A stretch of 51,602 nucleotides of DNA from Flavobacteriales bacterium (GTDB lineage: Bacteria > Bacteroidota > Bacteroidia > Flavobacteriales_D > Sanyastnellaceae): NCBI GenBank assembly GCA_027491215.1, contig JAIXWP010000025.1, positions 1 to 51,602 on the forward strand, given 5' to 3'. The notes below the pieces were generated by a model. It was not told the DNA's origin. It ran no database searches and worked only from the letters and a program-made list of their open reading frames with translations. Positions 8,590-47,543 of this stretch are shown in pieces. Numbering within the stretch: the first letter of the stretch is position 1; every line of letters starts with the position of its first letter. Made by a program: the position numbers and the translations under genes.

Positions 8590-9624
8590 ATGAAAAAGTC
8601 CCCAACGATTCTTCTTTTCGCCAAGATTTCTCTGGTCTTAATATTCATGGTCATCCTTGCTGGTAGCATAGTGCGTATGTCTGGCAGCGGCATGGGTTGT
8701 CCTGATTGGCCGAAATGCTATGGCTATTATATTCCGCCAAGCGATATCGAACCTTTGACTTATCGTGATGGCAAAATATTCAATGAAGGACAAATGGTCC
8801 TATTCAATGATACTCTTTGGGTGGCGCAAGATTCTGTATTCGCGTCTAATGATTTTAATCGTGCCGAATGGATGAAATACCCACGTCACGATTATGCTTA
8901 CTACAATCCTGTACATACTTGGATAGAATACTTGAATCGCTTGATTGGAGCGCTTTCTGGAATTCCAGTTTTGATTCTTTTTGTTCTGAGCTTTATTCAT
9001 TTGATTAAGAAAAAAGACAGAGGAACATTTGTGCTAGCAGCGCTAACATTTTTCATGTTAGGATTCGAGGCTTGGCTTGGCAAGACAGTAGTAGATGCCG
9101 AATTGCTCCCTGTCAAGATTACTCTTCACATGTTGGGCTCTATTGTCATCGTTGCGCTTCTTATGATAATCATTCACCGTCATAGAATCATCGATGCGCG
9201 GGTAAAAATTAATTCGCTTTTCTGGAAGATAATTTCTGCGGTGTGGGCGGTGATTGCATTTGCCCAGATCTTGCTGGGAACGCAAGTTCGAGAAGCCTTA
9301 GATGTTGTTGCAGATCACAGCGATGATCGCTGGACATGGATTGCGCAACTTCCGTGGATATTCAAGGTGCATCGTAGCTTTTCAATTCTTGTTTTTGCTC
9401 TTTTAGTTTTCACCTACATCCGAAGTAAGGGATTGTCGTTTTTGCCACGTCCTCTGAAAGGAATATTTATCGTAGCATTATTAGAGATTGCAGTAGGTAT
9501 GACTCTCGCTTATGCTGGTGTGCCAGCGTTTGCGCAACCGATTCACTTATTCTTCGCCATCATGTGGTTCGCTTTCGCATGGTCGTTCATGCTGATTAGC
9601 TGGAGAAAAGAAGAGATTATTTAA
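8590..9624 (+). CDS. ctaA: Heme A synthase (COX15/CtaA family)
   Basis: This inner-membrane protein of about 344 residues oxidises the C8 methyl of heme O to form heme A for cytochrome oxidase. About eight transmembrane helices are present. Family marks are GSIVRMSGSGMGCPDWPKCYG in the first helix and loop, HTWIEYLNRLIG at helix 2, HMLGS, and the paired-domain histidines in VHRSFS and IHLFFA. The first periplasmic loop is long, as in Bacteroidota members. I chose ATG 8590 (MKKSPTILLF) over an in-frame TTG at 8581 that lies inside the -7 box. Its 3' end overlaps the convergent PorV/Q gene by 8 bp. Confidence 0.93.
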   Translation: MKKSPTILLFAKISLVLIFMVILAGSIVRMSGSGMGCPDWPKCYGYYIPPSDIEPLTYRDGKIFNEGQMVLFNDTLWVAQDSVFASNDFNRAEWMKYPRHDYAYYNPVHTWIEYLNRLIGALSGIPVLILFVLSFIHLIKKKDRGTFVLAALTFFMLGFEAWLGKTVVDAELLPVKITLHMLGSIVIVALLMIIIHRHRIIDARVKINSLFWKIISAVWAVIAFAQILLGTQVREALDVVADHSDDRWTWIAQLPWIFKVHRSFSILVFALLVFTYIRSKGLSFLPRPLKGIFIVALLEIAVGMTLAYAGVPAFAQPIHLFFAIMWFAFAWSFMLISWRKEEII

Positions 9625-10756
9625 ATAGGTCGTATTTCAACGAGAAGATGTTGCTGTAAAGAACATCCGAAACGTTTCCAATATCCGAAAGAGCATAATC
9701 GAGGTAAAGCGATTTAATGCGTAATCCTATTCCGATATTCGGTTGAATAGTCAAGTATTTTGAACCATCAAAATCGGTGTATCTCTGAATGTTTCCAATT
9801 CCAGAACGGAAGAAAATAATATTGTTATAGCCTACTTCGATACCCATCGATGGATCAATGCTCACGGCATTTGTAGAAACAATCGTGTTACGCTTACCGT
9901 CTGTGGTGATATTGGTATTTATTTCTGCTAAAACAGAAATTTTCTTGATTTGAAATTCTCTTGCTGCACCTAAAATGACGCGTGGTAGCGCGATCTCCAA
10001 ACCGTTTTCTGGAATATCGTTATTGGTTTGTTCGAATACTTCTTTTGTGCGTTCGCTCAGTGAATATGACCATGCACTGAAGGTGCCCGTTATATCGCGC
10101 GCACTAGCTCCAAAGTGCCATTTATCTAAATCGTATTGAAGTCCAGCATCTAATCCGAAGCCCCATGCATTGGCGAAGTCTCCTATTTGACGATAAAGGA
10201 TTTTTGCGCTAGCGCCCCATCTAAAACCTCTTACACTATTCTGATCTCTAATTTCTTTTTTATTGAATCCTTGATAAAAAGGAAGGCCTTTGCGAGCATA
10301 AGAAAATATAAAGGCATAGTCAGCTGCGCTGAATGTTGTAATGCGATCATAATCGATATTGCCACCGGCATCAATTAATTCAGTGGTATTCGGAATATCA
10401 TCTACACCAAAACGAATGAAGGAAAATGATGCGGCACTCACAGAGTCAATGGCTTTTCCCACCGCAGCATAATCATACTTGGCAATACCTGCAAAATACT
10501 CGCTGTGCATAGCAGAAGCTTGAAGGGTACTCTTAATTCCTAAAAGACCTGCTGGGTTCCAATAACCCGATGTGACGTCCTTTACAGAAGCTACCTGAGA
10601 AAGTGACATTCCCAATGCACGCGCACCAACTCCAATGGTCAAGAATTCGTTGACATATTTTGGAGTAAGGTCTGTTTCTGCTGCGTTCTCATTTTGAGAA
10701 AAGGCAAAAACACTGTAAAAACTGAATATACAAATAAGGAGGCGGCGTAATTTCAT
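9617..10756 (-). CDS. PorV/PorQ-family outer-membrane beta-barrel protein
   Basis: This 379-residue protein has a signal peptide (1-20, ending AFSQ). The first mature block holds the family signature FLTIGVGARALGMSLSQVAS and GYWNPAGLLG. The rest is alternating beta strands that would form a FadL-like 14-strand barrel. PorV and PorQ work with type IX secretion at the outer membrane, but many Bacteroidota have several paralogues with unknown cargo. It is the last gene of the thyA-folA-hemA-hemC-hemD run, 25 bp after hemD. A second family member lies at 38132-39166; the two differ strongly. Which T9SS component it corresponds to cannot be decided from sequence alone. Confidence 0.82.
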   Translation of the reverse strand: MKLRRLLICIFSFYSVFAFSQNENAAETDLTPKYVNEFLTIGVGARALGMSLSQVASVKDVTSGYWNPAGLLGIKSTLQASAMHSEYFAGIAKYDYAAVGKAIDSVSAASFSFIRFGVDDIPNTTELIDAGGNIDYDRITTFSAADYAFIFSYARKGLPFYQGFNKKEIRDQNSVRGFRWGASAKILYRQIGDFANAWGFGLDAGLQYDLDKWHFGASARDITGTFSAWSYSLSERTKEVFEQTNNDIPENGLEIALPRVILGAAREFQIKKISVLAEINTNITTDGKRNTIVSTNAVSIDPSMGIEVGYNNIIFFRSGIGNIQRYTDFDGSKYLTIQPNIGIGLRIKSLYLDYALSDIGNVSDVLYSNIFSLKYDLFK

Positions 10757-37182: not shown

Positions 37183-37572
37183 TCAGGCTTTTGCGATTTC
37201 GCTAGCAAGTGCTTCGAACTGTTCCGGTGTCATTTTTACTCTCTCTTTAGTAAAATTAAGATCGCCTACTGAGTTCATCGGTACTAGATGAATGTGCGCA
37301 TGAGGAACTTCAAGTCCAATAACAGCAACGCCCACTTTGATACATGGCACTACTTTTTTAATCTTAATAGCAACCTCCTTTGCGAACAAATTGATGTCAG
37401 TCATCATTTGAGCATCGAGGTCGAAGTAGTAGTCAACTTCTTTCTTTGGGATAACTAAACAATGGCCTTTTGCTACTGGAAGAATGTCCAAAAAAGCCAA
37501 GAATTGGTCATTCTCTGCGACTTTATAGCAGGGTATCTCTCCACTAATTATTTTGGAAAAAATAGTAGCCAT
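37183..37572 (-). CDS. HIT-family nucleotide-binding protein
   Basis: This 129-residue protein has the histidine triad HAHIHLVP near residue 98 and the N-terminal block IFSKIISGEIPCYKVAEND. HIT proteins of this HinT type hydrolyse purine nucleoside phosphoramidates or related adenylated compounds. Length matches the family. It lies 1 bp after greA on the same strand, a pairing that recurs in Bacteroidota as far as I recall. Confidence 0.95.
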   Translation of the reverse strand: MATIFSKIISGEIPCYKVAENDQFLAFLDILPVAKGHCLVIPKKEVDYYFDLDAQMMTDINLFAKEVAIKIKKVVPCIKVGVAVIGLEVPHAHIHLVPMNSVGDLNFTKERVKMTPEQFEALASEIAKA

Positions 37573-37573
37573 A

Positions 37574-38050
37574 TCATCGAGAAATTTCTAGAACTTCAAG
37601 CTTAAGAATGCCTGCTGGAACTTTCACCTCTGCTACGTCTCCCACTTTTTTGCCTAATAAACCCTTTCCAATTGGAGAGTCAACAGAAATTTTCTTATCA
37701 GCGAGGTTGGCTTCATTTTCTGCAACAAGGGTATATTCTACTACAGCATTAGTATTCGCGTTTTTAATTTTTACTTTGGAAAGAATAAAAACCTTTGAAT
37801 TGTCTAATTGTGATTCATCTACAAGGCGTGCGTTTGCAACGAGGTCTTCCATTTTAGCGATACGGGCCTCTAGTAAACCTTGCGCTTCTTTTGCAGCATC
37901 ATATTCTGCATTTTCTGAAAGGTCGCCTTTATCGCGTGCTTCTGCGATTTGTTGGGAAATTTTAGGACGTTCTACTGTCTTTAGCTGATGTAGATCGTCT
38001 TTAAGTTTTTTCAAACCTTCCGCTGTATAGTATGCGACTTGTGAAGCCAT
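37574..38050 (-). CDS. greA: Transcription elongation factor GreA
   Basis: This 158-residue factor rescues backtracked RNA polymerase by stimulating transcript cleavage. The N-terminal coiled coil (about 1-76) carries the tip acids in EARDKGDLSENAEYDAAKEAQG. The C-terminal FKBP-like domain has SPIGKGLLGKKVGDVAEVKVPAG. I chose ATG 38050 (MASQVAYYTAEGL). A frame starting at 38104 would translate the terminator of the upstream operon and is not credible. Confidence 0.97.
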   Translation of the reverse strand: MASQVAYYTAEGLKKLKDDLHQLKTVERPKISQQIAEARDKGDLSENAEYDAAKEAQGLLEARIAKMEDLVANARLVDESQLDNSKVFILSKVKIKNANTNAVVEYTLVAENEANLADKKISVDSPIGKGLLGKKVGDVAEVKVPAGILKLEVLEISR

Positions 38051-38072
38051 TGTAGTAAACTTTAAGTATTCT

Positions 38073-38102
38073 AAAAAAGAGAGAACCCCTAAAGGGGTTC
38101 TC
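38073..38102 (-). terminator. Strong terminator of the TonB receptor-PorV/Q operon
   Basis: GAGAACCCC and GGGGTTCTC form a perfect 9-bp stem with a TAAA loop; A38073-38078 supply the U-tract on the minus strand after two bases. It isolates greA from the three-gene outer-membrane operon. Confidence 0.93.
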
Positions 38103-38131
38103 ATTCAGTACAAATATATTAAAAAATAATA

Positions 38132-39166
38132 TTATAGAGCGATATGCACGCCAATGCTGTGTACGCCGCCAAATGGGTTGGTCACGCGGTAGCTGTAGTC
38201 CAAACCAATGTTAGTTTCGTTAGCACCTACCGGAATTTGCACAGTAGCTCCAGCTGTTGGGCCTGTATAAACAGTAGTTCTAGCATCGTCTTCTCCTCCG
38301 CGGTCAAACATATAGCCTGCACGTAGGAAGAAGCGCTCACGGAATCCAAACTGTGCACCTAGTCCAAATTGGTCTTTAGTGAATGAGTTAGATGTGAATG
38401 ACGCGTCAGTAGTCAACTTCATTTTATCATTGAATAGGAAATCGTATGCGAAACCTACATTAACGAGTGAAGGCATTTCGTACTTATCAGAACGTTGCTC
38501 AACAGTCAACTGAGTACCATTACTAGCCACGTTTGCTGCAGTGCTTAATCCATCACCTCTGTAGCGCATAGGAGGTCCTACGTTGCGTAAAGCGATACCA
38601 AAGCGTACATTATCTTTTTCACCAGTTACGTAACGAATACCAGCATCGAAGGTAAATCCTTGAGCTTTTGCGTTATAAATCGCCTCAGAAATCATTCGAA
38701 CGGTGAGACCACCATAAATGCTATTCGAGAATCCTTTCGCATAAGACAAAGCGATGTTTGTATATGTCGGAGAAAAAGTACCAATACCACCTTCAGGAAG
38801 TGCTTCTGTGGTAATATCTAAGTCACCAAAGTTCATGTTGGTTACTGATAAACCAAGAGCACCACTTTCACCTACTTTTTGACCAAAACCAAAAGCATTC
38901 AATTTAATACCCGTACCAACTAAGTACTGAGTATTTGTGAAGACCAATTCAGTTTTACGAGTGAAGGCGAGTCCAGCAGGGTTTAAGAATGTTGCTTCAA
39001 TACCATTGATTGAAGCCATTCCTGCACCAGCAGAACCAGAGGTACGAGCCCAAGGATTAACCAATAGGTGACCTGCTCCCGCAGAACCAGCGCGATCTGG
39101 GTTACCAGCAAACGCACTTGTCAATCCTGTAATAGTCGTAAGAAAAATTATAGCGAGCTTTTTCAT
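38132..39166 (-). CDS. PorV/PorQ-family outer-membrane protein
   Basis: This 344-residue protein has a signal peptide (1-20, ending SAFA). The first mature block matches the PorV family: AGHLLVNPWARTSGSAGAG and IEATFLNPAGLAFTRKTEL. Strand-rich sequence with GVGENET-like turns follows and ends VHSIGVHIAL, as expected for a FadL-like barrel. PorV shuttles T9SS cargo to the attachment complex. It is the third gene of an operon with a 1410-residue secreted protein and a TonB receptor, so it may serve that cargo specifically. A terminator follows directly. Confidence 0.86.
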   Translation of the reverse strand: MKKLAIIFLTTITGLTSAFAGNPDRAGSAGAGHLLVNPWARTSGSAGAGMASINGIEATFLNPAGLAFTRKTELVFTNTQYLVGTGIKLNAFGFGQKVGESGALGLSVTNMNFGDLDITTEALPEGGIGTFSPTYTNIALSYAKGFSNSIYGGLTVRMISEAIYNAKAQGFTFDAGIRYVTGEKDNVRFGIALRNVGPPMRYRGDGLSTAANVASNGTQLTVEQRSDKYEMPSLVNVGFAYDFLFNDKMKLTTDASFTSNSFTKDQFGLGAQFGFRERFFLRAGYMFDRGGEDDARTTVYTGPTAGATVQIPVGANETNIGLDYSYRVTNPFGGVHSIGVHIAL

Positions 39167-39199
39167 AAGCGTTATTTCTTTCTAATTGATAATTGTGGT

Positions 39200-42100
39200 T
39201 TAGAAGCGATCAAGGTCAATAGGTCTCATGATACCAAACCACTTGAGAATCTTTTCTCCAACACCTGGTATATCAACGTGAATAATGTAAGTGCCACTTC
39301 CGATTGGAATGTTCTTAGCATTTTTCAAGTCCCAATTCAATGAAGTGAGTGGATCACCTTTCTTGTACTGACGTACAAGGGTACCATTCATATCATAGAT
39401 AGTTACTGTACATACCTCTGGAAGGTTGGTAATCTTTACGATATTATCAAGTTTACCTGGCTCATACGTGCTGAACGCGTAGTATGGATTTGGAACAACA
39501 TTGATGTAATCAAGATTACTTTCCAATGTAGCAGTGCTATTGAAAGATGGATTCAAGCCTTTTGTGCTGAAGCGGTATAGGTTTCTCCATCCGTTTACTG
39601 CACCGTTATTCGCAGGATTAGTCAACGTTGGAGTCGCATTAGCATAGCGCTCGTAAATCTTGCTCACTCTTATGCTCACTCGCGTTTCAGTTGGGATAAG
39701 ACCATCTGCCACACTTAGAAGTGGATTTTCAGCAATAGATATAGCAGAACCAACCCAAGCTGCAGAAGCGAAAACTCTCTTCCAGTTGGTGTTATTAATC
39801 GGTTGGGTATTCAACACGTTAAACATGTGTTGTCCTTGGTCGTAACGAGGCATGAACGTTGTGTTCGTTGAATTCTCCTCGTACTGTAGGTTACGGAACA
39901 CATAGATCCAGTGTTGTCCACCGAAGATTGAAGAACCAGTTGAGCTAAACAAGTTAGTCGAAGGGTTCCAAATCATATCACGACCGTTATCTGCAACTAA
40001 CCAGCTGTCTTCACCAAAAGCCATATTCAAGCGTTCTCCAGTGTTAACATCAATAGCATATCCTGGGAACCAACCCATACCAGTTGGCTGAGCTCCGTTC
40101 AAGGTACCTTCAGCATCGTTATATCCTTCATCACCTGATTTCTTACCATTCTTATCTACAGATGGGCTTCTTCTCAATCTAGACTTAGAATATGTCTCAC
40201 CTGCGAAACCTTGAGCTAAAGCAGGATTGCTTTGCATCTCAAGAACAGGACAGCGAGTCCACTTGCTCTTGTCAGATGTGAATACCACATCCACACTTGG
40301 AAGTCTTTCTAGACGAGCGAATGGCTTCAAAGTACCTGTATTAAAGATACTGTTTACTACTGGAGTTGCATCGTTGAAGTTCGTTAAGCTAACAATACCA
40401 CCTGCTGGTGCAGCATTTACATAGTAAGTGCCGTTATCAACTTGTGAATATGAAACTAGACCGTAAGGAGCCCAAGTACCACCAACAATGTCTTCATAGA
40501 TCTGATCTGGATCAGCTGCTTCAGTAGTTACACCAGGAGCGTTACCATAGAAGTCAGCAAAAATGTTTTGCTCTGCTGGGTTATCAGTAACAACACCATC
40601 AGAACCTGAACGAATCCAGTTCAATTCGCTTTCACCCTCTTGGTCAGGAATACCAAACATCCAAACTCGGTTAGGATCAGAGAATGTAAGTGTAGAAGAT
40701 ATTACTTCAGGGATATTACCATTAGGAACATCTTCAGAAATAATTGGATAGCTGTAAGAGCCCCAGTTGATAGAAATACCATAATCAATTAATACATCTT
40801 CACTAGCAATTCGGAAACTGCGGTAGTGAGGAATCGTTTCACCTGTAGTTAGGTTAGTCAATTCCCAACGCAATGAATCTGGATCATCTTCATTCAAATT
40901 ATCAGGACCTTTTAGGCGAAGTTCGAATTCTGCGTCTTGAACTCGAAGTGGGTCAACAACTTTAACCTCAACTGGGGATCCGCCTGGTGCGTAAGTCAAT
41001 TCGTCAGCAGTTCCATTTTCAAGAATTTCTCTTTCAGATTCTGCTGAAACGATGACGTTATTCATACCATGACCTTTACCTTCAATTCTGGTGATAGCGA
41101 TTCCTTGACCATATGTACTGTTTTGAATAGTACCCCCATTTTCAGGATTAGGCTTGTGAGGAATAGCAGCAATCACTTCGATAGCACCTGTTGGCGACTT
41201 ACGAGAAGAGATGAAAGAACGAGCTTGACCACTTCTAGTTTCGGTGTTATAAGGTAAATAGTTATTATAACCATAAGCAATTGCCATGAAGTAATAAGTC
41301 TTGTGGTTAACAAGGGTCTTAGAACCAGTAGCGAATTGATCTTCAGTAATTCTGAATGAACGTTGAAGTCCTTCGTTTGCTCCGCTCACTTCCAAAGAAG
41401 GAACAGGCAATCCGATTTCAGAATCGAAGTCATAGTTAATAATGTTTGTAATGTCATTTTCTAAATCACACTGTGCAATCAAACGTGCACGAGTGACGTC
41501 ACCCAATTCGTCTGGGCTCACTTCAGAATTTAAAAGCTGGTAAACCATGTATCCTTCAAACTGGTATGAACGCTGCTCTGGAGTGAATGTTAAGCCTAGA
41601 GATACAATGCTTTCAGGAATAGAAGCGTCGAATTCTAAATAAGTTTCATTAAAGTTATTGCTAATGGTGCTTTCATTACCAAGCATCAAAATCAATTCGT
41701 TTTCCAATTCACGCACTGTTACATCTGGAGCATCTGGACCAGATACAAGTTCGAAACAGTTGTCGAACAATGCTTGTGCCTTATCATCAGCATCACGAAG
41801 TAATTGAACAGAAGCAAGTGGATCTCCGCTCAAGCTTCTAGCCCAAACCACACCCACTGTAATGTTGTTGTAGTCACCAGGTTGAAGTGTGAAAGGACCC
41901 GCAGACTGAATGAATCGACGGTCACCAGCAGGGTTTCCTGAAGATTCTTCAGACCAGTCTGGCATATCAGTACCATCAGTACCCCAGTTAAGAGGATCTG
42001 TATCACCAGGGAACATATATCCTGCGTCTACGTCAGTTACACCTGAAGTACCAGTAACACCAGTACCACCATATTTCATAACCTGACCATTTTTCCAGAT

Positions 42101-43432
42101 ACCACGCATGTAGTTATAGTAGTCAGGAGCATTGTCAGGGTCACCATTCGTAGGGTTAGTACCAATGTTATAGTAAACGAAACGACGCATACCGAAACGT
42201 TCGTTGTCGATGATGTCATCACCATATCCGATTCCTAGACCAGAATATGGAATACCATTTTCAGCTTCTGCTTGAGTGATATCAGAAGTAAGAGGGTTAT
42301 CAATCAAGTCAGCATCTTGGTAAGGACCTTCAAAGAAGTCAACACCAACAGATGGAGGATTCAAACCATAACCATTTGTTCCAGGACCTGCCTCGTCATT
42401 AGCATCACCGTTATAGCAATATCCAAGACCACGCTGAACGTCGCATCCAACATAGTCGTCCGTAGAGTTTCCTAAGTCGGCATCAACCCATGATCCGAAA
42501 TAAGTTTCTGTTAATGTTTGAGAACCTTGGTTAATCAATACATAGTTGTAGAAAGTCATGTTATTCACTTCATCATTCGTAGTGAATGCGAATGCTTGTG
42601 CACGAACTTCCATACCGATAGGCTGACCAAGTGATTCAGAGTGAACGTTACCCTTATCATTGAAAATCCAGTAATAAGTTTGGTCACCAAAAAGAGGTAC
42701 TACGCTTTCACGAGTACGTGTCTTACAATCGATTTCCTTCAAGAAATCATACCATGGGTAGTCACCATTTCCTGGATCGTAAAATCCGTCACCATCGTAA
42801 TCATAGAAAGGAGCAAGATATAAATCTTGTCCAAGGCTCGGGTTACCCTGAGCTGGATAGTCATTAAAGTAAGAAGGCATGATGTAGTTTTCACAATCAT
42901 CATTACCCGCTTCGATACAATCATAATAAGCGCGGTGTAACTGAGCATCTTGACGAGTGCTAACAAAAAACTTGTCATATGCAGTACAAACGCTTTCTGA
43001 GATTTCTGCAGTACCATCGTTGGTAAGTGGACCAGGCCAGAAGTCGTTACCATCTGCACGGAAAGTTACCGCAGCAAGTTTCAACTGTTGGTCAGGAGAC
43101 ACACCACCCATCCAAAGGGCTCCAGAGTATATAGAGGAAACACCTCCATTGATAGGCACCTCATATGCTGCACGGCTCGTTGCACGATCCTGCCACATAG
43201 AACCACCTGTTTCAATTCTAGCTCTAACGTTGTTCCACTCCAAGTCACGTAGACCTTGAGCAGGAGCGCAAGCTGCTGCACGAGTTCCGAGCGCGCTTTG
43301 GCCGTGGTCGTCGTTGGTGCTCATGCCACCACCGTTATTGGAGTTAGCCCCCATGTAACGCATAGCTTGAGCATTAGAAATCATTCCTATTGCGAGTGCC
43401 AGTAAGCTGATCTTTTTAAAGATGTTCATCAT
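39200..43432 (-). CDS. Very large secreted protein with a T9SS-like C-terminal module
   Basis: This 1410-residue protein has a signal peptide (about 1-23, ending NAQA). The N-terminal half holds Asp/Gly-rich possible calcium loops (FYDYDGDGFYDPGNGDYPWY) and blocks such as QTYYWIFNDKGNVHSES and WSEESSGNPAGDRRF. The last about 95 residues resemble a FlgD/T9SS sorting fold: NVVPNPYYAFSTYE, VTIYDMNGTLVRQY, and IPIGSGTYIIHVDIPGVGEKI. The end is KWFGIMRPIDLDRF, a tail beyond the normal sorting-domain end. It is encoded 46 bp after a TonB receptor gene and 33 bp before a PorV/Q gene. Likely a surface-exposed partner of the receptor; function unknown. Confidence 0.8.
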   Translation of the reverse strand: MMNIFKKISLLALAIGMISNAQAMRYMGANSNNGGGMSTNDDHGQSALGTRAAACAPAQGLRDLEWNNVRARIETGGSMWQDRATSRAAYEVPINGGVSSIYSGALWMGGVSPDQQLKLAAVTFRADGNDFWPGPLTNDGTAEISESVCTAYDKFFVSTRQDAQLHRAYYDCIEAGNDDCENYIMPSYFNDYPAQGNPSLGQDLYLAPFYDYDGDGFYDPGNGDYPWYDFLKEIDCKTRTRESVVPLFGDQTYYWIFNDKGNVHSESLGQPIGMEVRAQAFAFTTNDEVNNMTFYNYVLINQGSQTLTETYFGSWVDADLGNSTDDYVGCDVQRGLGYCYNGDANDEAGPGTNGYGLNPPSVGVDFFEGPYQDADLIDNPLTSDITQAEAENGIPYSGLGIGYGDDIIDNERFGMRRFVYYNIGTNPTNGDPDNAPDYYNYMRGIWKNGQVMKYGGTGVTGTSGVTDVDAGYMFPGDTDPLNWGTDGTDMPDWSEESSGNPAGDRRFIQSAGPFTLQPGDYNNITVGVVWARSLSGDPLASVQLLRDADDKAQALFDNCFELVSGPDAPDVTVRELENELILMLGNESTISNNFNETYLEFDASIPESIVSLGLTFTPEQRSYQFEGYMVYQLLNSEVSPDELGDVTRARLIAQCDLENDITNIINYDFDSEIGLPVPSLEVSGANEGLQRSFRITEDQFATGSKTLVNHKTYYFMAIAYGYNNYLPYNTETRSGQARSFISSRKSPTGAIEVIAAIPHKPNPENGGTIQNSTYGQGIAITRIEGKGHGMNNVIVSAESEREILENGTADELTYAPGGSPVEVKVVDPLRVQDAEFELRLKGPDNLNEDDPDSLRWELTNLTTGETIPHYRSFRIASEDVLIDYGISINWGSYSYPIISEDVPNGNIPEVISSTLTFSDPNRVWMFGIPDQEGESELNWIRSGSDGVVTDNPAEQNIFADFYGNAPGVTTEAADPDQIYEDIVGGTWAPYGLVSYSQVDNGTYYVNAAPAGGIVSLTNFNDATPVVNSIFNTGTLKPFARLERLPSVDVVFTSDKSKWTRCPVLEMQSNPALAQGFAGETYSKSRLRRSPSVDKNGKKSGDEGYNDAEGTLNGAQPTGMGWFPGYAIDVNTGERLNMAFGEDSWLVADNGRDMIWNPSTNLFSSTGSSIFGGQHWIYVFRNLQYEENSTNTTFMPRYDQGQHMFNVLNTQPINNTNWKRVFASAAWVGSAISIAENPLLSVADGLIPTETRVSIRVSKIYERYANATPTLTNPANNGAVNGWRNLYRFSTKGLNPSFNSTATLESNLDYINVVPNPYYAFSTYEPGKLDNIVKITNLPEVCTVTIYDMNGTLVRQYKKGDPLTSLNWDLKNAKNIPIGSGTYIIHVDIPGVGEKILKWFGIMRPIDLDRF

Positions 43433-43478
43433 TTCTTGGCTATTGAGTTTCTTAATAATTAATTCTTTTTTCTTTCAA

Positions 43479-46400
43479 TTAAAAGTCAAAACGTACACCC
43501 AAACGAATCTGGCGAGGTGCCGAGAAGTTGTAAGGATTATTCACGTTCATGCTGTAGTAATTTCTGAAAGAATCTGGTGAGTTCTGTGCGTTGATCAATG
43601 CTTGGTATTGAGCTGATGCTAAATATCCATCATCGTCTGGAGTACCTGTAAATCTGTAAACACCATTGATATTCTGAGTGTTCAAGAGGTTAGTAATCCA
43701 TAGGTAAACATTCAAGTTAGCCGAGCGCTGCTTTTCTCCTTCTTTACCAAAGGTCAAAGTGAAGTTGCGATCCAATTGCATATCAACAGAGAACTGCCAT
43801 GGTAGACGTGATCCATTCAAACCACCTTTCGTAGCAGGAGCAATTTCACCTGTAACTGGAGTTGCAAACTGCTGCGAGGTATATGGTGTACCAGATCCAA
43901 GGTTTGCAATTACGTTAGCACCTGTGTTTTCGAAAATTCTCTTTCCGAACCAAACTGGACCATTGTATTCTGCACCTTCACCATAACGGTAGTCAATGGT
44001 AGTAACAATACGGTGACGTTGGTCATAGTTGAAAGGAGCAACTGTTCTCAAGTTTGGAAGACCGTTGTTGATCAAAGCCAACTGCGTTTGAGTTGTAGAA
44101 CCTGTACCATCAGCGAACTGAAGGGTGTAAGATGTCTTCATCCAAATGTTACCCGTACGACGAAGGTCATAAGTTAAAGTCAAACCTTTAACAGTACCAA
44201 AGTCAAGGTTACCGAATGTTCTGTAAGTACTTGGATAAGCACCAACATAACTTCTAACCTGAATCATATCTCTCAATTCACGGTAGAAAGCTTCTAACTT
44301 GATTGAAGACGTACGAGAAAGGATTTGTTGGAATCCAAGAGCATAGTCAACTGTTTTTTCAGGACGAAGGTTTGGGTTGTTGATCAAAACGTTTCTGTTC
44401 GCCATGTACAAGTAGTCAATCGGGTTGAAACGATTGCTTTCAGTTGGACGTTGAGTCAAGATGTCGTAGTGAGCAAAGAACAATGCTTCATCAGAAATTG
44501 GGAATGAGAAAGCGATACGAGGCATGATGTTTACCGCTGGATCGTAATCCTTAAAGGCTCCGCTGGTCAATACACCAGGACCACCTTGTAGAAGTGGGTT
44601 TACTTTACCCGCCGAACCAATAGAAGAAACTGGATCAGTTACTACTTGACCTTGTGCGTTGTACCAAGTATCACCGTCACGGTATCCTGTTACTGCTGTT
44701 GGATTAGCAGCATCATTCACATAAACTACGAAATTGTCACCAATGTTAGAAGGAGGAGTTATGTCGCCGAGCTGACCGAAGTTAGCTTCGCCAACTGTAG
44801 TTCCAATACCAACTACATAAGGATCTTTCAATACTGGTTGGTTTGCATCAAAACGGTCGATACGAACACCGACGTTGAAGATCAAGTCATCAAATGCAAA
44901 CTTATCCATGATATAACCAGAAGTGTAGATTGGTTCAAATGCACCAATCGAACGCTTATAGTAAGTGTTTCCGCCTAAAGTATATTGTTCTTGGAAGAAG
45001 TCATCAATGGTTGGTCTTCCGCGCATTCTCTTACCAGTGTGATCATAACCGAAGTAGTTAACGTAGTTCTGACCCTGGTTCAATAGATCTTCTGCACCGA
45101 ACAAACCTAAGTCAAGGAATTCAGGATCTAGATTGTCAATGTTTACGAAGTCAGTTCCGTTTGGATCAAGACCTAGTTTTGTTCTAAGACGATAGTCAAA
45201 CTCATATTGCCCCTCACCAACTAATTGGTTAAAGTAAACGTAGTTGTTACCATCGAATATTACAGTTGTAGAGTCATATCCAGAGCCTGCTGCGTTGTCC
45301 AACTCACGGATGTGAGAATTGGTGTACAAACGACCTGCTTGCCAAAGTGGAATTGGAGATAGAGCATAACCCGCGTCACGACGTTGTTCGAATTCGAAAC
45401 CGATTTGAACTGCGTGGTCTCCGATGTCAGCAGAACCAGCTCCAGAAACACGGAACTGATTAGTGTTTGAAATGCTATAGTTATTGTTCTGTGTGCCTAT
45501 GTAGTTCCAAAGGCCATATGTCTGATCAGGTGAGTAACCATTCAAAAGACCATTACCAGCAAGAATGTTATCGATAGAAGCATATGGATTAGATCCAATG
45601 AATAATGCTGTATTCGGGTCGTTGATGAAAATTTGACGTGGGTCACGGATAATGTTTCCGTTCTCATCGTTGATAAGCCCAGCTACAACTGGATTTAAGT
45701 CGAAGTATGAGAAGTACTGATTAGTCAGTGCCGCTGTTTCAGGATTGTACTCAGAAGGAGTGAAGTCAACATTGATAGACTGAGTACCAGTTTGGCGGAA
45801 GTATGATCCGTTATACTCATATTGATTACCTCTTACGATATCGTAATAACCGATGTGACCATATTTGAATACGTCATCTTTGTGTGTATCATCCTCACGC
45901 TTAGAGAAGTTCTGGCTATAGTCAACCATTACAGAGTAGAATACGTTTTTCAAGTTGTTCGCAGAAGATTCTTTTCCATCTGCATTCTTGAAACGCTGAC
46001 TGAACTTCGCATAAGCTCTCCAGTCAAGATCCGTAGCGCGCTGGTTGTTGTCAGAGTTCATCAACAAGTTTGCATAACTAAGCTGATGAGAGCGACTGAA
46101 AGCACCAGTACCACCGAAGGTCAAGGTGATGTTGTCAGAGGCATTAACGTCAATCTTCGCAACTAAGTTTGCTGATCTATCGCGGTTATTCAGGTTTGTT
46201 TTAACCTTTTCAAAGTCATTTGAAGTGAGGAAGTCCGCATTGTAGAGCGCACCTGTTCCTGTTTGATTTACACGGAGAGGATTTGCAAGAATAGCAGCTC
46301 TTACATCATCTTTCATTTTGTAGTTACCGCCGAAAGCTGGGTTAGGGTCTACGATATCGGTATAGTTACCTGATACGAAGAAGCCCAGAACTGGACGAAT

Positions 46401-47234
46401 CTTATTTCCTACTGAGTCCTTCTTAAATAGAATAGGACCAGAAAGAGATCCTTCTACGAGGTTGTAACCATAGTGGTCAAGTCCTACAGCTTTATCACCA
46501 CTCTTAAAGCCAGAAGTAATTACTTCGAGACCTCCAGTGTATTGTGAAGAAGCACTACGAAGAGCGATGTTAACGACACCACCTGTTGCATCCCCGATAT
46601 TCGCTGGGATACCACCTGTGATTACGGCAACTTCTTCGATAGCTGATTTTGGAAGTGCGGTACTACCGCGAACTTTGATACCATCGATATACACCCAAGT
46701 AGAACCTGTACGTGCACCGCGAATAGAGAGACCACCGCCAGTACCAGCAGAGCTAACCCCTGCAACGGTAGAAGCCAGTCCTAAAGCGGAACGGCTTGGC
46801 ATTTTGGAAATTTCTTCGCGGGTTACAGTTCCACCAGAAGCTCCACCATCTTTATCGATCAATGGAACCTTGTAGTCCACGATCTCGACAGTTTTGAGTT
46901 CTGCGCCTGGTGTTAGCTCTGCGTTAGCAAAAGCTATTTTACCTGTTGAAATAGGAATCCCACGCACAGTTTGTGGCTGGTATCCCACCATTGAGAATTG
47001 AATCTCATAGGTTCCAGGATCAATTGGTTTAATGGTGAATTCACCATCAAAATCGGTAGTGGCGCCAGTCACAAGGTTACCATTGAGGTACACTACAACG
47101 TTGGCAAACGGTAGTGGCTCTTTGGTGTCCTTATCGGTCACCTTTCCTTTCAACGTACCACTATTGCCTTGGGCAAATGCACTTGATACGCCTAATAATA
47201 AGAGTGCTACTAGCAAGTAAACTTTTCTCTGCAT
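43479..47234 (-). CDS. TonB-dependent receptor with carboxypeptidase-like regulatory domain
   Basis: This 1251-residue outer-membrane receptor has a signal peptide (1-22, ending AFAQ). A CarboxypepD_reg-like domain is at about 26-105 (GTLKGKVTDKDTKEPLPFANV). The plug at about 120-240 has SRSALGLASTVAGVSS and IEEVAVITGGIPANIGDATGG. A large beta-barrel ends in RLGVRFDF with the terminal Phe used for barrel insertion. It lacks an obvious TonB box in the sequence I can read. Substrate is unknown; with no SusD partner it is not a classical glycan receptor. It is the first gene of the receptor-1410 protein-PorV/Q operon. Confidence 0.93.
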   Translation of the reverse strand: MQRKVYLLVALLLLGVSSAFAQGNSGTLKGKVTDKDTKEPLPFANVVVYLNGNLVTGATTDFDGEFTIKPIDPGTYEIQFSMVGYQPQTVRGIPISTGKIAFANAELTPGAELKTVEIVDYKVPLIDKDGGASGGTVTREEISKMPSRSALGLASTVAGVSSAGTGGGLSIRGARTGSTWVYIDGIKVRGSTALPKSAIEEVAVITGGIPANIGDATGGVVNIALRSASSQYTGGLEVITSGFKSGDKAVGLDHYGYNLVEGSLSGPILFKKDSVGNKIRPVLGFFVSGNYTDIVDPNPAFGGNYKMKDDVRAAILANPLRVNQTGTGALYNADFLTSNDFEKVKTNLNNRDRSANLVAKIDVNASDNITLTFGGTGAFSRSHQLSYANLLMNSDNNQRATDLDWRAYAKFSQRFKNADGKESSANNLKNVFYSVMVDYSQNFSKREDDTHKDDVFKYGHIGYYDIVRGNQYEYNGSYFRQTGTQSINVDFTPSEYNPETAALTNQYFSYFDLNPVVAGLINDENGNIIRDPRQIFINDPNTALFIGSNPYASIDNILAGNGLLNGYSPDQTYGLWNYIGTQNNNYSISNTNQFRVSGAGSADIGDHAVQIGFEFEQRRDAGYALSPIPLWQAGRLYTNSHIRELDNAAGSGYDSTTVIFDGNNYVYFNQLVGEGQYEFDYRLRTKLGLDPNGTDFVNIDNLDPEFLDLGLFGAEDLLNQGQNYVNYFGYDHTGKRMRGRPTIDDFFQEQYTLGGNTYYKRSIGAFEPIYTSGYIMDKFAFDDLIFNVGVRIDRFDANQPVLKDPYVVGIGTTVGEANFGQLGDITPPSNIGDNFVVYVNDAANPTAVTGYRDGDTWYNAQGQVVTDPVSSIGSAGKVNPLLQGGPGVLTSGAFKDYDPAVNIMPRIAFSFPISDEALFFAHYDILTQRPTESNRFNPIDYLYMANRNVLINNPNLRPEKTVDYALGFQQILSRTSSIKLEAFYRELRDMIQVRSYVGAYPSTYRTFGNLDFGTVKGLTLTYDLRRTGNIWMKTSYTLQFADGTGSTTQTQLALINNGLPNLRTVAPFNYDQRHRIVTTIDYRYGEGAEYNGPVWFGKRIFENTGANVIANLGSGTPYTSQQFATPVTGEIAPATKGGLNGSRLPWQFSVDMQLDRNFTLTFGKEGEKQRSANLNVYLWITNLLNTQNINGVYRFTGTPDDDGYLASAQYQALINAQNSPDSFRNYYSMNVNNPYNFSAPRQIRLGVRFDF

Positions 47235-47517: not shown

Positions 47518-47543
47518 AAAAAAGCCCGTTCATACGGGCTTTT
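47518..47543 (-). terminator. Intrinsic terminator after the basic exported protein gene
   Basis: AAAGCCCGT and ACGGGCTTT form a perfect 9-bp stem with a TCAT loop. A47518-47523 give a U-tract on the minus strand, about 20 nt after the stop of the 47563-47865 gene. Confidence 0.9.

Follow-up and report, generated by a model that had tools for sequence, protein, structure and literature searches.

The TBDR-BIG-PORV triad and its gene order

The DNA analysed here, which we refer to as the window, is a stretch of 51,602 nucleotides from a Flavobacteriales bacterium (assembly GCA_027491215.1, contig JAIXWP010000025.1); it is one of 150 contigs in a 3.17-Mb assembly, and its nearest named relatives are Flavobacteriales metagenome-assembled genomes (MAGs). 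Three open reading frames (ORFs) follow one another on its minus strand. From the ORF list and Pfam and NCBIfam scans, the first encodes a TonB-dependent receptor (TBDR; 1251 aa, 43479..47234). The second, defined by the ORF list, profile matches and a predicted structure, encodes a protein of 1410 aa that we refer to as BIG (39200..43432), and the third encodes an outer-membrane barrel of the PorV/PorQ family, placed by family scans and a tree, that we refer to as PORV (344 aa, 38132..39166). The TBDR-BIG gap is 46 bp and the BIG-PORV gap 33 bp. An intrinsic-terminator-like hairpin with a T run (38081..38102, minus strand) was found between the PORV stop codon and greA, and another terminator-like hairpin (47520..47543, minus strand) upstream of TBDR, behind the preceding gene. 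Since these hairpins flank the trio and greA starts behind the first of them, the trio reads as a unit of its own, in line with an earlier note on this DNA that had described an operon ending in a terminator. Terminator-like sites in the stretch numbered 10, a count not above that of shuffled sequences (mean 8.7); the two flanking hairpins have the longest stems among the 10, and both are intergenic. Sigma-70-like sites in the trio stretch occurred at chance level only, a Bacteroidetes-type promoter pattern matched once in the window, not before TBDR and no more often than by chance, and Rfam gave no match within the window.

The gene order was evaluated in 40 distant loci. The first 20 were chosen from profile matches before their synteny was known; in these TBDR preceded BIG in 20/20 and PORV followed it in 19/20 (the exception being L144). 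The second 20 came from weak matches, and here PORV followed BIG in 18 and TBDR preceded it in 16, the contig start having removed TBDR in 2. In total, BIG was immediately followed by PORV in 37 loci and immediately preceded by TBDR in 36, and in 2 more the contig start cuts off TBDR. The idea that the weak matches reflect the tail of BIG only was rejected, as 18 of these 20 loci have BIG followed by PORV; family f46 (L223, L224) is tail-like only. The distant BIG relatives are 1048–1705 aa long and 17–36% identical to BIG of the window. Among 79 named loci, TBDR stood before BIG in 53 and PORV after it in 34; the complete order was present in 29, with GreA and HIT behind it in 28 of those, and the remaining loci are contig ends or hold a paralog of BIG (B). 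In the named loci, the triad order reaches Bacteroidales records at about 40% identity. Because the trio recurs across the phylum, its arrangement is not due to chance, and TBDR-BIG-PORV is an ancient unit kept in order across much of the phylum. The earlier note would have given up its view had the three families failed to co-occur in other genomes; the synteny check it proposed gave strongly the opposite result.

Several records touch on this gene order from the side. GWxTD-domain proteins lie behind PORV in the distant loci L143, L149, L151, L154 and L159. In a one-contig genome (G013:C1:2983039-2987180), the BIG gene of the triad spreads over two frames, and its second part contains stops. 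Candidatus Planktophila lacus, the name of an actinobacterium, is the title of a record (L086) that holds a Bacteroidota-like triad; this MAG name looks wrong, as do those of several records titled Chryseobacterium gleum. In Flavobacteriales and in some Bacteroidales records, GreA and HIT keep their place beside the triad; in the window, greA and the HIT-family gene (37183..38104, minus strand) probably form a separate transcription unit.

BIG matches were found in 39/40 genomes of the window's genus, family and order, its own included. A lineage-specific oddity was rejected, since the first BIG profile already matched other classes: among 395 phylum genomes it matched 184, and a deeper profile matched 191 (six of them weakly). 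SprA was counted in 304 of the 395 at E 0.001, 303 of them above the family cut-off. It was present in all 191 genomes with BIG, and BIG was found in none of the 91 genomes lacking SprA, which do not amount to 91 independent points, since they sit in few clades. As BIG was found only in genomes with SprA, it is most likely exported by the general type IX secretion system (T9SS). Conversely, 113/304 SprA genomes had no BIG match even by the deeper profile, so the T9SS works without BIG. BIG was present in 8/93 SprA genomes of the window's class versus 183/211 of the other classes.

Predicted domains of the three proteins

Pfam and NCBIfam scans covered eight proteins, the trio and five neighbours. 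TBDR contains CarboxypepD_reg and Plug domains above the Pfam cut-offs, and its start, like that of BIG, resembles a signal peptide as judged by eye. The SusC/RagA model TIGR04056 was not among its NCBIfam matches, and the receptor of a distant triad (L145) scored 60.1 bits against this model, whose cut-off is 368.25. A PDB sequence search with TBDR returned one 93-residue TonB-receptor domain.

BIG matched no Pfam or NCBIfam domain above cut-off; Pfam found neither an adhesion or repeat domain nor a glycosidase in it, and a PDB sequence search gave a chance-level match only. In its tail, FlgD_ig was matched below cut-off, and the PorZ model gave 23.3 bits, in the tail only (cut-off 260). The structure was predicted in two parts (mean predicted local distance difference test scores of 78 and 80). 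In this model, residues of about 1302–1402 superimposed on the C-terminal domain (CTD) of PorZ (5m11) with Z 11.5 and a root-mean-square deviation (rmsd) of 2.3 over 88 residues, at 30% identity. With Z 9.5 the PorU CTD came second, those of NucA and RemA in SprA complexes reached Z 7.7 and 7.5, and PorZ was the sole Foldseek match of the tail with E below 0.001. On the predicted model, BIG is thus a protein that ends in a T9SS-type CTD closest to that of PorZ, which agrees with the T9SS-like terminal fold claimed earlier. BIG also carries a C-terminal extension of about 10 residues, ending RPIDLDRF. Its last G-x-Y motif lies 31 residues from its end; when 30 CTD tails from 29/30 own-genome loci were compared, 28 ended 21–24 residues past this motif, one 18 and one 9 (probably the wrong motif). 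The extension, ending D-L-x-x-F or similar, is kept in close and many distant relatives, and other groups end otherwise.

At the other end of the model, residues of about 53–561 matched the N-terminal β-supersandwich and linker of GH94, GH116, GH65 and GH15-type enzymes. The best match was 9ju0 (Z 18.4, rmsd 3.2, 251 residues). No catalytic (α/α)6 barrel was recognised behind the supersandwich in the BIG models, the remaining parts of which were barely tested. Two own-genome proteins, L002 (G000:C82:2182-3441) and L003 (G000:C126:1199-1558), with open frames of 592 and 863 aa, share part of the N-terminal half of BIG and bear T9SS type A tails; the BIG head may therefore be a T9SS surface domain in wider use. 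No second full-length BIG was found in the window's own genome.

PORV scored 148.8 bits against the PorV/PorQ family model NF033709 (cut-off 90), as expected from the PorV/Q assignment made in the earlier note, and a PDB sequence search with it returned PorV. It fell below the NCBIfam cut-offs of PorV, PorQ, PorV2, PorP/SprF and BamG, with 73.9 bits for PorQ (cut-off 220) slightly ahead of 64 bits for PorV, 26.1 bits for PorP/SprF (cut-off 90.55) and 25.1 bits for BamG (NF053685, cut-off 250). The same genome holds separate full-scoring PorV, PorQ and PorZ genes, plus PorV2: the true PorQ is another gene (358 bits), the true PorZ lies at G000:C20 (641 bits), and PorV2 (NF052325, 489 bits) is encoded within the window at 9617-10756 on the minus strand, not adjoining the trio. 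Orthology of PORV and BIG to PorQ and PorZ was therefore rejected, both orthologs lying elsewhere in the genome and the scores being far below the cut-offs. In a FastTree phylogeny of 139 sequences, PORV stood apart from the own-genome PorV, PorQ and PorV2, and all 48 triad PORVs fell into a subtree of 85 without these three (support 0.96). The triad PORVs do not form a clean clade, as this subtree also contains 37 other PorV-family proteins. The notion of a dedicated shuttle fits PORV; since its score for PorQ, the anchor of PorZ, is slightly above that for PorV, it is equally likely to be a stable anchor. At E 0.001, the T9SS type A tail is matched 135 times in the genome, which points to heavy use of the T9SS. 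Given these own PorV, PorQ and PorZ genes, and the finding of BIG only in genomes with SprA, the earlier suggestion of a self-contained unit is not supported.

Paralogous triads and second BIG copies

The triad is multiplied in classes sister to that of the window. Twelve genomes hold 4 to 23 PorV-family genes each (E 1e-12). We fetched the loci of 20 of the 37 non-triad members of the PorV-family subtree (L314-L333, from 10 genomes) and read them with our own ORF caller. Thirteen of the 20 were triads of their own; in one of them (L321), a single unmatched ORF separates TBDR from the CTD protein. In five others (L315, L319, L327, L331, L332), TBDR lay directly before PORV and a CTD protein of roughly 700 aa was encoded one or two ORFs further upstream; these loci may hold a module of the same kind in which another protein is the lid. 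At L326, TBDR was followed by a CTD protein and, just behind it, by a PorV-family match that the ORF caller had overlooked, while L323 was neither a triad nor the TBDR-PORV variant. The middle protein of 12/13 paralogous triads matched BIG beyond the CTD; that of L322 matched in the CTD only.

Carbohydrate genes were found within about 10 kb of 10/13 paralogous triads. The neighbours scanned were larger ORFs chosen by position, and for the controls, 10 stretches of 8 kb were picked arbitrarily in the same genomes and their longest ORFs were used; 22/40 neighbours qualified versus 1/29 control proteins, the single control match being a heparinase-like fragment (Fisher p 4e-6, neighbours within a locus not being independent). 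Without the three neighbours of the variant loci L327, L331 and L332, the count was 22/37. The cut-offs were E 1e-10 for controls and 1e-3 or 1e-5 for triad neighbours; at the control cut-off CBM9 and CBM20 dropped out and the count was 20/40 (p 2e-5). Genes for ROK, MFS, hybrid two-component system (HTCS), TIG, NHL, amidase and peptidase proteins were excluded from the 22/40, and a UDP-GlcNAc epimerase and an HTCS-like regulator from the control count. The families found comprised GH9, GH5 with CBM6, GH3, GH2, GH31, GH92, GH94, GH130, α-amylase, glucoamylase, CBM9 and CBM20, several of the carbohydrate proteins bearing T9SS tails, together with sugar-type ABC transporters (solute-binding proteins, permeases and a MalK-like ATPase). 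No SusD was found among the scanned neighbours of the paralogous triads.

In the window's own family, a second kind of multiplication was seen, of BIG alone. A second BIG (B) lies beside the triad in L056, L057 and L070, in the order TBDR-A-PORV-B-GreA-HIT. Elsewhere, B sits at another site behind a RecB/UvrD-like gene (about 1030–1100 aa; labelled by eye from the N-terminus), as in the Flavobacteriales MAG loci L043, L046, L048, L050 and L052. Three loci (L040, L045, L091) show mixed A and B neighbourhoods and may be assembly chimeras through identical C-terminal halves. All 13 genomes chosen for having two BIG copies held a single TBDR ortholog (E 1e-60) and a single close ortholog of PORV; one of them, G017, had an additional PorV-family match, 28% identical.

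Separate trees of the N- and C-terminal halves were built from 31 of 49 full-length BIG proteins. In the N-terminal-half tree, A and B of the same genome stood apart (L057; L062/L046; L059/L052), with B in two groups. In the C-terminal-half tree, the same-assembly sequences L062 and L046 paired up and the two L057 copies were identical; L059 and L052 stayed apart there too, and the L070 pair grouped together in both halves. At the nucleotide level, identity between the L057 copies rises from about 70% in the first 2400 nt to 100% in the last 1800. Ten of 15 same-assembly pairs show such a jump or share 120–150 nt of identity or near identity at the compared end of the C-terminal half, and one intermediate pair (CANFLZ) shows 90–96% over the last 250 nt only. 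At contig ends, seven pairs are exactly identical over 123–149 nt and CAMCTV is 94–100% identical over 200 nt, lengths that may barely exceed an assembler word; only L056 and L057 show the whole homogenised tract, and the first copy of L056 is broken into several frames. The boundary falls at about residue 800–870, shortly after a linker that the model predicts with low confidence (residues 763–775), so that the homogenised half corresponds to residues of about 800–1410 of BIG (39200..41030, minus strand). Since the C-terminal half is homogenised while TBDR and PORV are single, the simplest reading is that two BIG heads fit one shared dock and that the docking half is kept alike by gene conversion.

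Relation to known systems and a proposed role in uptake

Membership of the SusC/SusD (SusCD) group was rejected, as no SusD was present among the genes scanned and TBDR did not match the SusC/RagA model; the absence of SusD-type Pfam or NCBIfam matches among the eight proteins of and around the trio bears out the earlier statement that this is not a SusC/SusD pair. The triad resembles SusC/SusD and RagA/RagB in that a TonB receptor gene adjoins that of a large, probable surface ligand-binder, and its multiplied copies resemble SusC/SusD in lying in loci with glycoside hydrolases and sugar transporters. Unlike SusCD, the triad has a partner protein with a T9SS-type CTD, includes a PorV-type barrel and is tied to the T9SS in its occurrence.

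PorQ anchors PorZ at the surface, according to a passage of PMC5562754, and parts of a review (PMC10202324) state that PorZ keeps its CTD and raise the idea that cognate PorV-like barrels protect CTDs from cleavage. The triad shares with PorQ-PorZ a PorV-family barrel and a CTD protein whose predicted CTD is closest to that of PorZ. It differs in its scores, in the separate presence of PorQ and PorZ in the genome, in the supersandwich head and C-terminal extension of BIG, and in the inclusion of a TonB receptor. Passages of PMC12618676 and PMC9143113 say that type A CTDs all use PorV, and that type B CTDs have their own PorP/SprF, commonly encoded downstream. Like the type B pairs SprB-SprF and PG1035-PorP, BIG and PORV combine a secreted protein with a cognate FadL-family barrel encoded directly downstream; unlike them, BIG has a type A-like tail, with the type B CTD model TIGR04131 not among its matches at E 0.1, and PORV is of the PorV/PorQ type, far below the PorP/SprF cut-off. 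BamG, as described in an excerpt of PMC12611786, is a FadL-family barrel that holds a surface protein, BamH and BamM being surface lipoproteins. PORV-BIG would likewise join a FadL-family barrel to a surface protein, whereas PORV scored 25 bits against the BamG cut-off of 250 and BIG has a T9SS-type CTD in place of a lipoprotein's nature. By analogy with PorQ-PorZ and the type B pairs, BIG and PORV seem to be a third pair of this kind, one that unites a type A-like CTD with a partner of the PorV/PorQ type and to which a TonB receptor is joined.

We lean towards the reading that BIG is exported by the T9SS, held by PORV and used as a SusD-like lid for TBDR in an undescribed form of nutrient uptake. 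BIG, with its putative signal peptide and T9SS-type CTD, would cross the outer membrane through SprA and be captured by the PORV barrel, staying on the surface with its CTD uncut, as PorZ does on PorQ. The head would then act as a ligand-binding lid or receptor working with TBDR, which would import the captured ligand. Such a system would work in the manner of SusCD, except that a T9SS-exported protein on a PorV-type anchor would take the place of the lipoprotein SusD. The gene order, its synteny across the phylum, the confinement of BIG to SprA genomes in the sample, the two folds of the predicted models, the carbohydrate setting of the paralogous triads and the homogenised half beside single TBDR and PORV genes are observations; that BIG is exported, anchored by PORV, in contact with TBDR and active in uptake is what we infer from them. 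Ligand capture for TBDR is suggested by the carbohydrate setting of the multiplied copies and by the supersandwich head.

Several observations weigh against this reading. No carbohydrate gene was present among the five scanned neighbours of the window triad, and carbohydrate-active enzymes (CAZymes) or sugar transporters were found in 0/10 scanned neighbours of core triads; because of this, the core triad may have another role, and the uptake role put forward in the earlier note draws indirect support from the loci around the paralogous triads and none from the surroundings of the window's own copy. Amidases or peptidases lay near 3/13 paralogous triads instead, and one HTCS-like regulator near a triad was matched by another in a control stretch. 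The tail of BIG is close to the cut-off of the T9SS type A model TIGR04183 (23), with 21.6 bits as a protein and 26.9 in the genome search, and unrelated Ig and fibronectin domains matched it at Z 7.5 to 8.7, level with the NucA and RemA CTDs. Four of the 15 BIG pairs (L059/L052, L070, L055/L064 and JAQWQB) showed no homogenisation, and the concentration of SprA-less genomes in few clades makes the tie to SprA strong but not 91-fold evidence.

The trio might instead serve the T9SS itself, as an additional attachment complex resembling PorQ-PorZ-PorU-PorV. BIG would then process cargo or act on a surface glycolipid, and TBDR would have a structural or gating part instead of importing anything. 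For the BIG tail, both sequence and structure give PorZ as the closest match, and a weak PorZ match also came from one of the two distant BIG proteins that were scanned; of the T9SS equivalog models, the one that fits PORV best is PorQ. The restriction of BIG to SprA genomes and its near-universal presence in the window's genus, family and order (the 39/40 above) fit as well. A T9SS protein that resembles TonB receptors is PorF/PG0534 of Porphyromonas gingivalis. PG0534 is named among T9SS components in a portion of PMC5562754. We nevertheless consider this role unlikely: full-scoring PorZ, PorQ and PorV are already present in the same genome, triads multiplied near CAZymes and sugar transporters would be unexpected for one general attachment complex, and more than a hundred SprA genomes (113/304) do without BIG.

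Another reading takes BIG for a giant adhesin or surface-coat protein that, as SprB does in SprF, has a PorV-type shuttle of its own, the receptor being just co-transcribed or helping with placement. The layout of type B substrates, in which the gene of a large secreted protein is followed directly by that of its cognate FadL-type barrel, speaks for it. This reading we regard as improbable, as adjacency to TBDR is about as conserved as adjacency to PORV (36 vs 37 of 40 loci), the paralogs occur in carbohydrate loci, and Pfam detected no adhesion or repeat domain. Since the contacts among TBDR, BIG and PORV are inferred, the three proteins could in principle act independently, in an operon kept for unrelated reasons with co-regulation as the only cause of its conservation. 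That the order is kept across classes despite BIG identities as low as 17–36%, and is kept as a block in the multiplied copies, makes such independence very hard to credit.

The T9SS-exported lid on a PorV-type anchor also permits a broader and more tentative picture, which is possible but which we hold with some reserve. The triad would represent a second, T9SS-dependent class of TonB uptake in Bacteroidota that stands in for SusCD and consists of a receptor, a giant exported lid whose head is glycosidase-like, and an anchor of the PorV type. It would go back to an ancestor of much of the phylum, have disappeared widely from the window's class and have multiplied into polysaccharide utilization loci (PULs) in sister classes; in the window's family, one receptor would serve two heads that can replace each other and whose docking halves gene conversion keeps alike. 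No published description of the trio was found in a search of open-licence PubMed Central text. The parts are of known kinds; the combination, the ancient synteny, the restriction to the T9SS and the PUL-like multiplication appear to be new.

Family models name these parts piecewise, as a TonB receptor, a T9SS protein and a PorV/PorQ family protein, and not as a unit. If the proposed role is true, the PorV-family expansions of 4 to 23 copies in 12 genomes would gain a function, and PULs could be predicted where SusCD-based methods fail. The triad would also provide a direct test of the idea, found in part of PMC10202324, that cognate PorV-like barrels shield CTDs from cleavage. It would link the T9SS and TonB uptake, two hallmark machines of the phylum, and would mean that a large part of Bacteroidota takes up glycans via a SusD-free system.

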